A stretch of DNA of 64,000 nucleotides. Source: Ignisphaera aggregans DSM 17230. Lineage in GTDB: Archaea > Thermoproteota > Thermoprotei_A > Sulfolobales > Ignisphaeraceae. Where the stretch lies: positions 1,778,501 through 1,842,500 of the forward strand of contig CP002098.1 of NCBI GenBank assembly GCA_000145985.1, given 5' to 3'. A program made the position numbers and the translations under genes. Below, one piece after another: positions 33,808 through 60,747 of this stretch. The notes under the pieces were generated by a model. The model did not search any database. It saw only the letters and a program-made list of their open reading frames with translations, and was not told the origin of the DNA. The first letter of the stretch is position 1, and every line of letters begins with the position of its first letter.

Positions 33808-35790
33808 TTAGCAACATATAATTTCTCCTATATCTTCTGATGCTCTATAACCTTTAGTGGAATTGATTATATCCTTAATACTACTACTTCTAAGAACATT
33901 TAAAAATGCCTTAACAACGCCCTTCGATTTGTAAGAATCTTTAGAAACTATAAAGTCATAGCTTTCCCATGATAATGGTATATAGTTTAGGTTATAGATT
34001 ATAGCTGCATACTCTATACATACACCAATATCAGCTCTACCCTGGGCAATTGCTGCTGCTACACCACTGTGTGTAGATACTTCATATCTATAACCATTTA
34101 TTCTCCTAACAAGATCACTAAAAGATACACCAAGCTTTTCTGCTAATTTTCTAAGGATATAGTCTATATATGCTCTTGTACCAGATCCTCTATTCCTATT
34201 AACAAACCTTATGTCCTTTCTCAAGATATCTTCAAACGATGTTATATTCTTAGGATTGCCAGGTCTAAACGCTAAGACAAGCCTTCTTTCATACCCCCTA
34301 ACCAAAAATGCTTTTTCTCTAAGAACCTCATCCTTTTTGAAGAGAGGTATATTATATAAACCCTCTGTTTCATCAAATATGTGTATAGGTGCAATATCTA
34401 TATAACCCTTCTTGATAAGCTCAACACCGTTATATGAACCTATGCTGATAACCCTAAATCTATTGAGTAGGCCAGATCTATTTAATATCTCGTTTAAAAG
34501 AATATCGTGACTCCCCATAATAATGCCTTCTATAGCTCTATTACTCAGAGGTAGAACATCTATATACTCTCCCTCATCAATAACATCTCTATTCTCTGGA
34601 AGAAGTGCTATTCCATCAGCTTTTATTAAAACTGATATGTTTCCAGATGAATATGAAAATGGTATAGCATATACCTCACCAGCAACTTTATTTAGAACTA
34701 CAGGTACAAACCATTTTCTACCTATATCCTTTCTAATCTTGTTACCTATCTTCGCTTTTACGAATATGTTTTGATCTGAAGAACCCATAATTTTCTTGAT
34801 AATTGGGATAAGTAGCAGTAGAGCGTTACTAACAGCTGAAAAGGGAAAACCTGGAAGACCTATTAAGAGTTTTCCATTATTAGAAACAGCTATCACTGTA
34901 GGCTTACCAGGCTTTAGCTTAAGTCCATGAACAACAATCCTTCCAACCCTACTAAAAACTCTGTAAACAACATCCTCTAGACCAGCCGAAGTTCCTCCAG
35001 ATGTCACAACAATATCATACTCCTTTAGTGCATCGACTATAACCTTGTAGAGCTCCTCCTCATCGTCTTTAACAATACCATAGAATTTCACATCTATGTT
35101 CAGCATCTTTAGAAGAGATGTAATGAGATATCCATTAGAATCATAGATCTTTCCAATATCAAGACTTTTACCAGGTTCTATAAGTTCATTGCCTGTGGAT
35201 ATAACAAAGACCTTTGGAGACTTGAAAACCTTTACTCTTCTTATTCCTAGAGCAGCTAGAACAGCTATTTCACTATATGTTAAGGTTGTTCCCCTTGGAA
35301 TAACAAGCTCCCCTATAGCAATATCACTTCCAGCATATGCAATATTCTCACCTGCATATACAGATCTATAGACCACTACTTTCCTATTATCTATCCGCTC
35401 TGTATATTCCTCCATTACTACTCCCTCAACACCTCTGGGGATCATAGCTCCTGTAGCTATCTCAACAGCTTCACCTAGATCTATAGCTATAGATGGTGAT
35501 TCTCCTACCTTTACACTTCCCTTAACAGTCAATTCTATTGGATTAAGTTCATCAGCACCCTCTACACTTTTCACCATTACGCCATATCCATCAACCTCAG
35601 ATCTATCAAAAGGCGGATAGTCTATGGGTGCATAGATGTCTTCAGCAAGTATACGTCCATACGACTCCAACAGATCTACCTCATCTATATCAATGGGTTT
35701 AAGAATACCTTCAGATTCCAATATATGTATGGCTTCTTCAAGCGATACAAGTCTGTGAAAAATTCTTCTATCTACAGCATTTGGATCCAT
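33808..35790 (-). CDS. moeA: MoeA molybdopterin molybdotransferase fused to a periplasmic-binding-protein-like domain
   Basis: Residues 1-410 are MoeA, which inserts metal into adenylylated molybdopterin. The segments 'DYPPFDRSEVDGYGV', TGAMIPRG, 'VTSGGTSAGLEDVV', 'KPGKPT' and 'LPGFPFSA' are present. Residues about 430-660 form a substrate-binding domain of the type II periplasmic-binding-protein fold with RNRGSGTRAYID, an oxyanion-binding loop. This fusion is known in archaea and Clostridia; the extra domain presumably senses molybdate or tungstate. It overlaps the upstream MoeA gene by 19 bp. Confidence 0.9.
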   Translation of the reverse strand: MDPNAVDRRIFHRLVSLEEAIHILESEGILKPIDIDEVDLLESYGRILAEDIYAPIDYPPFDRSEVDGYGVMVKSVEGADELNPIELTVKGSVKVGESPSIAIDLGEAVEIATGAMIPRGVEGVVMEEYTERIDNRKVVVYRSVYAGENIAYAGSDIAIGELVIPRGTTLTYSEIAVLAALGIRRVKVFKSPKVFVISTGNELIEPGKSLDIGKIYDSNGYLITSLLKMLNIDVKFYGIVKDDEEELYKVIVDALKEYDIVVTSGGTSAGLEDVVYRVFSRVGRIVVHGLKLKPGKPTVIAVSNNGKLLIGLPGFPFSAVSNALLLLIPIIKKIMGSSDQNIFVKAKIGNKIRKDIGRKWFVPVVLNKVAGEVYAIPFSYSSGNISVLIKADGIALLPENRDVIDEGEYIDVLPLSNRAIEGIIMGSHDILLNEILNRSGLLNRFRVISIGSYNGVELIKKGYIDIAPIHIFDETEGLYNIPLFKKDEVLREKAFLVRGYERRLVLAFRPGNPKNITSFEDILRKDIRFVNRNRGSGTRAYIDYILRKLAEKLGVSFSDLVRRINGYRYEVSTHSGVAAAIAQGRADIGVCIEYAAIIYNLNYIPLSWESYDFIVSKDSYKSKGVVKAFLNVLRSSSIKDIINSTKGYRASEDIGEIICC

Positions 35791-37004
35791 ACATAGTCAC
35801 CTTTCTCAAATCCCTCGACATTTGATGGTATCTCAAGAAATCCGTTTGCTTTAGCTAAAGAGCTTAGTATACCTGAGCCTCGAAGCATTATTGGTTCCAC
35901 ACATAGCTCCTCACCACATCTATATACCTTCACCCTCACAAATGTGTTATAGCCAATAACACCTGTAACACGTTTTAAAAGCTTTGCTCTTATCTCCAAA
36001 GGCTCTATACCCTTTATACCAAGGTATCTAGATATAAATGTAAGTACAAGTATCTTTACCCCTATATATGCAGCAACAGGAAATCCAGATAACATGAATA
36101 TTGGTTTTCCATTGTATATAGCAATAGATGTTGGTCTTCCAGGCCTCATCGCAATACCTTGTACAATAATTTCTGCACCTATAGATCTAACACCTCTATG
36201 TGTAACATCATGTCCTCCAGGCCCTGTACCACCTGTAGTTATGACAATCTCATTTTCATCTAATGCTCTAAGCAAAACTTTGCTAATCATATTTATGTCA
36301 TCTGGATAGATTCCATACCATCTAGGTTTTATGAAACGATATTCACTTAAGGTAGCTAGAACAAGCTTGGATGTGGAATCAAGAATATAGCCTTTTTCAT
36401 AAGCCTCTATACCAGCATCAGAATCTCTGACCTCACTACCTGTAGTGATAACTCCTATATTCAGCTCTCTATATACCTTAATGCTATTTCTACCTATTGT
36501 GGATAGCATTGCGATGTGCCAAGGTCTAACAATAACACCCTTCTCAATCAATATCTCTCCAATCTTAAAATCCTCACCAGCTATAGAGATATTGGCATAT
36601 CTGGGGACACTACGCATAACATATATGGAGTTACCAGCAACATAGACATCCTCAAGCATTACAACAGCATCGAAAGGCTCAGGAATCTTCTCACCTGTAT
36701 GAATCTCTACTGCATCATTACATGTATATTCTCCCTCCATTTTTCCTCTAAGTCTCAGTGGAATTGGGTTAGCAGGACTTGCAGATGTAATACTATCACT
36801 ACAGATAGCATATCCATCAACAGCGCTTCTATTGAATGGAGGGAAATTTATCGGTGATACAACATCCTCCGCAGCAATTCTACCTAATGCATTTATTAAA
36901 CCTATTTCTACAATGTCTAAGGAAAATTTCGATGCTTTGACAACTTGTGCTATAGCCTTATCGATAGGCTCATACACCCTATTTATATGGCTTACAATAT
37001 CCAC
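35772..37004 (-). CDS. moeA: MoeA molybdopterin molybdotransferase
   Basis: This 410-residue MoeA has the usual order of domains: 'NFPPFNRSAVDGYAI', TGEKIPE, the nucleotide loop ITTGGTGPGGHDVT, 'RPGRPTSIA' and 'LSGFPVAAYI', then the C-terminal domain. It is the first of two tandem MoeA genes. In archaea the pair is thought to let the cell handle tungsten and molybdenum cofactors separately. GTG at 37004 is the start. The small guide RNA candidate lies just upstream on the other strand. Confidence 0.9.
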   Translation of the reverse strand: MDIVSHINRVYEPIDKAIAQVVKASKFSLDIVEIGLINALGRIAAEDVVSPINFPPFNRSAVDGYAICSDSITSASPANPIPLRLRGKMEGEYTCNDAVEIHTGEKIPEPFDAVVMLEDVYVAGNSIYVMRSVPRYANISIAGEDFKIGEILIEKGVIVRPWHIAMLSTIGRNSIKVYRELNIGVITTGSEVRDSDAGIEAYEKGYILDSTSKLVLATLSEYRFIKPRWYGIYPDDINMISKVLLRALDENEIVITTGGTGPGGHDVTHRGVRSIGAEIIVQGIAMRPGRPTSIAIYNGKPIFMLSGFPVAAYIGVKILVLTFISRYLGIKGIEPLEIRAKLLKRVTGVIGYNTFVRVKVYRCGEELCVEPIMLRGSGILSSLAKANGFLEIPSNVEGFEKGDYVWIQML

Positions 37005-37069
37005 ATCTAATACACCATTAACAATTATTAATTGTTCTAGACACTTATATTGTTAGCGGCATTGAATTT

Positions 37070-37117
37070 ATGATGAGTTAGCTGAGCTCTGAATGGTGAT
37101 GTACCCGGTATTACTGA
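37070..37117 (+). ncRNA. C/D box guide RNA candidate
   Basis: In order: box C ATGATGA (37070-37076), a 12-nt guide (37077-37088), box D' CTGA (37089-37092), a 3-nt gap, box C' GTGATGT (37096-37102), an 11-nt guide (37103-37113) and box D CTGA (37114-37117). Both spacers are at the length expected for archaeal C/D sRNAs. A TATA-like cttatattg lies about 25 nt upstream. The D guide is complementary to UAAUACCGGGU, the D' guide to AGCUCAGCUAAC; I cannot name targets with certainty. The 3' end overlaps the stop codon of the convergent nth gene. Confidence 0.75.
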
Positions 37118-37854
37118 ACACCTATTCTACAGCACTTTGTGTTGATAGGGCACTCGCTGCATCTAGGGTTTCTAGCTTTACAAATCATGCGTCCATGAGC
37201 AATTAACGATATGTGTAAACTAAGCAATTCCTCTGGATTATGTTCTACTACACCAAGGATGAATTTTCTTATATCTTCATAACCCATATCCTCATGAACA
37301 ATACCAAGTCTCTTCAGCACTCTCATAATATGTGTATCTATTGGGAATGTAGGTTTTTTATATATCATTAATAGAAATACATCTGCAGTTTTATAGCCAA
37401 TACCATATATAGATAGCAAGGCTTTTCTAGCATCATCTACACTAAGATTTTTTAGATCATTGAAAAACTTAGGATTTTCCTTAATATGTCTAGAGAGTTC
37501 CAACAAACTTTGCAATCTTCTATTAGCAAGACCAGCAACATTTATCGCATTGATAATAACTGAAGGATCTATAGATAAAATCCTATCCGGCGTTATGACG
37601 TCATCAAGAACATTTTTCAGTCTTAATAATGCTCTATATGCATTTCTATCACTTGTATTCTGAGACAATATTATCCCAACTAGAACCTCAAATGGCTCTG
37701 CACCCTCTGCTACAAGTTTGAGGGCGACGAAATCATCTATCTTAATACTGTCTCTGTAATATATTTTGATCTGTTCAAATATATTCACAATATCTTCTCT
37801 GTTCCATACGCATGTTTTCTTCATAGACATTTTTACCCTAGGTTCTATACACAT
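37111..37854 (-). CDS. nth: Endonuclease III, DNA glycosylase/AP lyase
   Basis: The 247-residue base-excision repair enzyme carries the helix-hairpin-helix 'LLSIYGIGYKTADVFL' with the catalytic Lys, 'FPIDTHIMRV' with the catalytic Asp, and the C-terminal [4Fe-4S] loop CKARNPRCSECPINTKC (C-x6-C-x2-C-x5-C). It removes oxidised pyrimidines. An ATG at 37824 or nearby (MKKTCVW) could be the true start; the N-terminal dozen residues are unusual. Confidence 0.92.
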   Translation of the reverse strand: MCIEPRVKMSMKKTCVWNREDIVNIFEQIKIYYRDSIKIDDFVALKLVAEGAEPFEVLVGIILSQNTSDRNAYRALLRLKNVLDDVITPDRILSIDPSVIINAINVAGLANRRLQSLLELSRHIKENPKFFNDLKNLSVDDARKALLSIYGIGYKTADVFLLMIYKKPTFPIDTHIMRVLKRLGIVHEDMGYEDIRKFILGVVEHNPEELLSLHISLIAHGRMICKARNPRCSECPINTKCCRIGVQ

Positions 37855-60697: not shown

Positions 60698-60747
60698 ATG
60701 ATGATACGACGGTCTCCTGAGAAAATGATGTTACTTCTCTTCGCTGA
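60698..60747 (+). ncRNA. C/D box guide RNA candidate aimed at 23S rRNA
   Basis: The array is textbook: C ATGATGA (60698-60704), a 12-nt guide (60705-60716), D' CTGA (60717-60720), 4 bases, C' ATGATGT (60725-60731), a 12-nt guide (60732-60743), D CTGA (60744-60747). A TATA-like ttttaaa lies about 35 nt upstream. The D' guide is complementary to AGACCGUCGU, which I recall from archaeal 23S rRNA directly before the site matched by the other candidate. The D-guide target (complement CGAAGAGAAGUA) is not recognised. Confidence 0.85.

Follow-up and report, generated by a model that had tools for sequence, protein, structure and literature searches.

Box C/D guide sRNAs of archaea (Dennis et al. 2015, PMC4644070; Breuer et al. 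2021, PMC7994747) are the closest described relatives of the element reported here. The present locus resembles them in its four boxes, its two guides of 11–12 nt and its length of about 50 nt, as well as in overlapping a protein gene at its end and in its N+5 target logic. It does not differ from them in kind, and its guide sequences and targets are specific to its own family. Most archaeal C/D sRNAs have no promoter of their own and overlap the ends of open reading frames (PMC7994747). The Rfam families sR28 (RF01136) and snoPyro_CD (RF00095) share its box architecture and spacing and differ from it in the guides. Among C/D sRNAs directed at tRNAs, guided methylation in the D-loop is known for G18 of tRNA-Gln in S. 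acidocaldarius (PMC7668247), and tRNA-directed sRNAs whose second guide lacks a target have also been described (PMC7994747). In the Pyrobaculum and S. acidocaldarius examples cited in these two reports, one guide fits a tRNA region common to several isoacceptors and the second guide is likewise without a good target. The locus described here is distinguished from them by its predicted site, C13 of the D-stem.

The window, that is, the whole stretch of 64,000 nucleotides analysed here (G000:C1:1778501-1842500), comes from the complete archaeal genome of Ignisphaera aggregans (1,875,953 bp). Between a moeA-like and an nth-like gene it contains the following features.

37070-37117, + strand: box C/D guide sRNA from C box to D box, recognised by its box array and conservation
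37070-37076, + strand: C box ATGATGA, read directly; kept in orthologs, variant in G003
37077-37088, + strand: D' guide GTTAGCTGAGCT with core TAGCTGAGC, a tRNA D-arm complement whose predicted N+5 nucleotide is C13
37089-37092, + strand: D' box CTGA, read directly and compared with orthologs
37093-37095, + strand: D'-C' spacer ATG (3 nt), read directly
37096-37102, + strand: C' box GTGATGT, read directly and compared with orthologs
37103-37113, + strand: D guide ACCCGGTATTA; orthologous guides fit 23S 2226-2236 (predicted N+5 nucleotide A2230), weakly so in I. aggregans
37114-37117, + strand: D box CTGA, overlapping the last sense codon of nth
37111-37854, - strand: nth-like DNA glycosylase gene (endonuclease III superfamily), convergent neighbour; top family scores below curated cut-offs
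35772-37004, - strand: moeA-like molybdopterin gene, neighbour divergent from the sRNA
37044-37051, + strand: TATA-like element CTTATATT with its centre 22 nt upstream of the C box; a doubtful promoter for the sRNA

The mature sRNA probably extends a few nucleotides beyond the C and D boxes on either side, to about 37066-37119. Direct reading confirmed the C, D', C' and D boxes and the 12- and 11-nt spacers given in the earlier note. The same holds for its statement that the 3' end of the sRNA overlaps the stop codon of the convergent nth gene: the open reading frame coordinates place this stop codon at 37111-37113, inside the D guide, so that the overlap is real. The copies in G004 and G010 likewise overlap the nth stop codon. 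The TATA-like element, which had been described as well placed, lies a few nucleotides too close to the C box for a transcript beginning just ahead of that box: with its centre 22 nt away, transcription would start within the C box. Orthologs do not share its position; on the other strand, the same element could equally serve moeA. On the moeA side, two tandem moeA-like genes with overlapping ends occupy 33808-37004 on the - strand, and the downstream one is longer (660 aa), with an apparently extra C-terminal domain.

The array was compared with the archaeal box consensus (C, RUGAUGA; D', CUGA; C', RUGAUGA-like; D, CUGA). The box order, the guides of 12 and 11 nt (expected, about 9–14 nt) and the D'-C' spacer of 3 nt all agree with what is expected of archaeal C/D sRNAs. 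In 100 simulated first-order Markov sequences with the same composition and dinucleotide content as the window, the full C/D pattern occurred 0.00 times per 64-kb window, rising to 0.01 when the C' box was relaxed. The window itself holds two complete arrays, at 37070(+) and 60698(+). Genome-wide, the pattern TGATGA-N9-14-CTGA-N2-8-TGATG matched 17 times and its reversed control once. A fibrillarin gene is also present (E 3.8e-106). Both Rfam models aligned end to end with the candidate at scores under their gathering thresholds (sR28, 21.3 bits versus 39; snoPyro_CD, 17.9 bits versus 45), so it is not a member of either family; we infer that the scores are low because these models score the guides as well as the boxes.

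Loci in relatives were first found by searching with the nth protein. Of the 11 genomes of the genus, nine (I. aggregans, G001-G007 and G010) carry the sRNA convergent to nth, at or just past its stop codon; the G003 copy was recognised by inspecting the sequence. A search of 214 genomes of the order with a pattern that required part of the D' core and the boxes retrieved the sRNA in 13: the nine syntenic genus members, G011 and G015 of the sister genus, G142 and G133. In G011 and G015 the sRNA is present with no convergent open reading frame ending beside it. G133, which belongs to another family, has a C/D array with the same D' core and an unrelated D guide. In G142 (locus L127), also filed in another family, the sRNA and its flanks are near-identical to those of G006, which makes contamination of this metagenome assembly the probable source of the copy. 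A contig scan with nth yielded a single distant relative, whose record bears the title Eubacteriales bacterium.

The nine syntenic genomes together with G011 and G015 make up the 11 family members that were used for comparison, with G142 and G133 left out. Across these, the sRNA had a mean identity of 83% and its flanks had 26% (60 nt on the upstream side) and 30% (downstream side), which identifies it as a C/D box sRNA gene that has been conserved. The earlier note had called the element a C/D box RNA and had named box conservation in close relatives as the check. This call is now strongly supported: boxes and guides are kept throughout the 11 genomes, in contrast to the diverged flanks, and the refutation it had envisaged fails. 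The sub-gathering Rfam scores would fit the notion that chance boxes in an intergenic gap mimic an array where there is no gene. That notion is refuted by an sRNA conserved across 11 genomes between flanks that have diverged, and it runs against an expectation of 0.00 per window, and we regard it as extremely improbable. Judged from its sequence, the candidate is a real, conserved and ordinary archaeal C/D box guide sRNA gene, whose expression we infer.

We examined the two guides for targets in stable RNAs. The D' core TAGCTGAGC is invariant in the 11 genomes, of which nine were already known by synteny, the earlier locus search having used the box pattern only. Against the 43 tRNA genes of its own genome, the D' guide forms 10 Watson-Crick pairs with tRNA-Lys(UUU) and 9 with tRNA-Asn, two tRNA-Ala and two tRNA-Thr. 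This supports the earlier suggestion that its complement resembles a tRNA D-arm. In every one of these six tRNAs the pairing starts at A9, and under the N+5 rule pairing from A9 onward predicts 2'-O-methylation at C13. None of 300 shuffled D' guides formed 9 Watson-Crick pairs in a tRNA; the tRNA D-arm is highly conserved, which makes a chance match easier than in unique sequence. The same D-arm was found in tRNA-Ala of G003 and G005. In 7 of the 11 orthologs the base beside the D' box is G and is then unpaired with A9. PMC4644070 uses as criterion at least 9 consecutive Watson-Crick pairs to a stable RNA including the N+5 nucleotide, and of the two guides only the D' guide reaches this. A pattern search of tRNAs in the genus revealed that the combination of D-arm and T-arm seen in tRNA-Lys(UUU) is not general there; the gap range of this search excluded tRNA-Ala, on which it is uninformative. 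Cm13 did not turn up among the modifications that PMC6313347 lists, and no report of guided Cm13 was found in the literature examined. An exact D' complement at C1:218902-218913 was rejected as a target, lying within a long coding frame.

Further C/D candidates and tRNA features were seen in the same genome. One C/D sRNA (L100, G000:C1:1142557-1142586, - strand) carries a D guide, GGCTGAGCTACT, that forms 11 Watson-Crick pairs with the D-arm class AGCUCAGCC of at least 4 tRNAs and points to G10. This guide fits the other large D-arm class, so that D-arm targeting is a theme of the sRNA set of this genome. The second complete array in the window, ATGATGATACGACGGTCTCCTGAGAAAATGATGTTACTTCTCTTCGCTGA at 60698-60747 (+ strand), is probably an rRNA guide sRNA, because its D' guide forms 10 Watson-Crick pairs with 23S (the readable 3' half of its own and those of G003 and G005). 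Three other candidates (L098, L101 and L104) have D' guides with 9–10 Watson-Crick pairs to the same 23S stretch (G005 701-706) and form a predicted redundant guide set. Both tRNA-Lys genes (L018 and L023) are 90 nt long and carry additional sequence following the anticodon arm, possibly a noncanonical intron; ARAGORN called no intron there.

For the D guide, the earlier note had pointed to a 16S segment. The 16S and the 5' half of the 23S of I. aggregans are masked in the sequence used, and the 16S of relatives was therefore taken instead. At the expected match, 16S sequences of the same genus read GACTAATCCCCGAT or GATAGTCCCGGGAAAC, and no 16S site emerged for guides compared with the 16S of their own species, so that among these relatives the suggestion did not hold up. 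Moreover, the changes between guides of different species do not follow 16S, and the covariation expected in G005 failed, by which 16S was rejected as the D target. The better rRNA candidate is 23S 2226-2236 (CAGCACCGGGU; E. coli numbering obtained by direct alignment to K-12 rrlB), which the orthologous D guides fit and where they predict methylation of A2230. The fit amounts to 11 of 11 Watson-Crick pairs in G015, 10 of 11 in G011 and 9 contiguous pairs in G001, scored against the 23S common to other genus members, since the 23S of G001 was not found and G011 and G015 lay outside that 23S search. None of 300 shuffled G015 D guides gave 11 pairs. In I. aggregans the readable 23S retains the site, and its own D guide forms 8 Watson-Crick pairs and 1 G-U pair with a mismatch at N+4, short of the 9 pairs asked for in PMC4644070. 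The pairing is also weak in G004 and G002 (N+4 mismatch), the guides of G005 and G006 mismatch 23S at N+5, and in G003 the target site itself has changed. The D guide thus looks ancestrally aimed at this 23S site and now decaying, a direction suggested by the ortholog comparison made without a tree. Other sites tried for the D guide were rejected: in the tRNA T-stem CCGGGU pairs but C48 is mismatched at N+5; in the anticodon stem of tRNA-Met, tRNA-Ile and tRNA-Tyr the pairing ends at A38; and the 8 Watson-Crick pairs at the splice junction of pre-tRNA-Phe were equalled or exceeded by 13 of 300 shuffles.

We consider it probable, on the pairing and conservation above, that this is a conserved C/D sRNA whose D' guide addresses C13 of six tRNAs and whose D guide stems from one for 23S A2230 that has been weakened or lost. 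It has to be weighed against a conventional 23S double guide, with D directed to 2226-2236 (A2230), D' directed to 2241-2251 (C2245) and the tRNA match secondary or accidental. The D site is followed, five bases further downstream, by the stretch 23S 2241-2251, AGUUCGGCUGG, which runs into the P-loop. This is the order in which a classical double guide would have its two sites. Such a guide is expected to pair by both guides within 100 nt of rRNA, with a Watson-Crick pair at N+5, and sRNAs with two sites this close together are common (PMC4644070). The D' guide pairs at 2241-2251 11 in a row with G-U allowed, a match that 83 of 3000 shuffled D' guides equalled at no more than 100 nt from the D site, and the D guide of G015 reaches its full Watson-Crick pairing. 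Against this, the G-U pairs of the D' guide occupy identical positions throughout the 11 genomes, in none of which they have turned into Watson-Crick pairs, and the same guide bases fit the tRNA perfectly, so that the tRNA is preferred as the substrate that fixes D'. The D' guide has also stayed fixed where the D pairing is weak (I. aggregans, G004 and G002) or broken (G003, G005 and G006). On balance, a 23S double guide with an incidental tRNA match seems rather unlikely to us, and 23S 2241-2251 may be seen as a rival or an additional D' target.

The additional role would amount to one D' guide with two substrates, pairing by Watson-Crick pairs with the six tRNA D-arms (Cm13) and by wobble pairs with 23S around C2245. 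Within the core, the tRNA and 23S substrates differ only by transitions that guide G and U tolerate. We rate this combination as doubtful; if true, such an sRNA would mark the tRNA core and the rRNA beside the P-site, with the 23S half lost in some lineages. It is also conceivable that the true targets belong to the masked, unreadable parts of the I. aggregans rRNA (16S and 5' 23S) or to another RNA such as 5S, SRP RNA or RNase P RNA, and many archaeal guides are orphans (PMC7994747). The species-matched 16S and 23S of G003 and G005, despite the same D' core, contain no site with at least 9 Watson-Crick pairs, and we hold such hidden targets to be very unlikely.

In the preferred reading, with tRNA C13 as the D' target, a + strand transcript would form a k-turn from its C and D boxes and a k-loop from C' and D', and would bind L7Ae, Nop5 and fibrillarin. 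The RNP would 2'-O-methylate the target nucleotide that pairs with the fifth base upstream of each D or D' box. The D' guide would thereby give Cm13 in the D-arm of tRNAs with AGCUCAGCU (Lys-UUU, Asn, two Ala and two Thr), and the D guide would descend from one for 23S A2230 (E. coli numbering), which lies in the region of helix 79. That the RNA is expressed, assembles into an RNP and guides methylation is predicted from comparative sequence evidence.

No study of C/D sRNAs in this genus was found in the literature searched. The picture of how C/D sRNAs work is unchanged by this locus. What it adds is a well-conserved guide RNA with specific predictions, Cm13 in six tRNAs and methylation of 23S A2230 in relatives, and an apparent example, over a dozen genomes, of one guide staying fixed while its partner decays.
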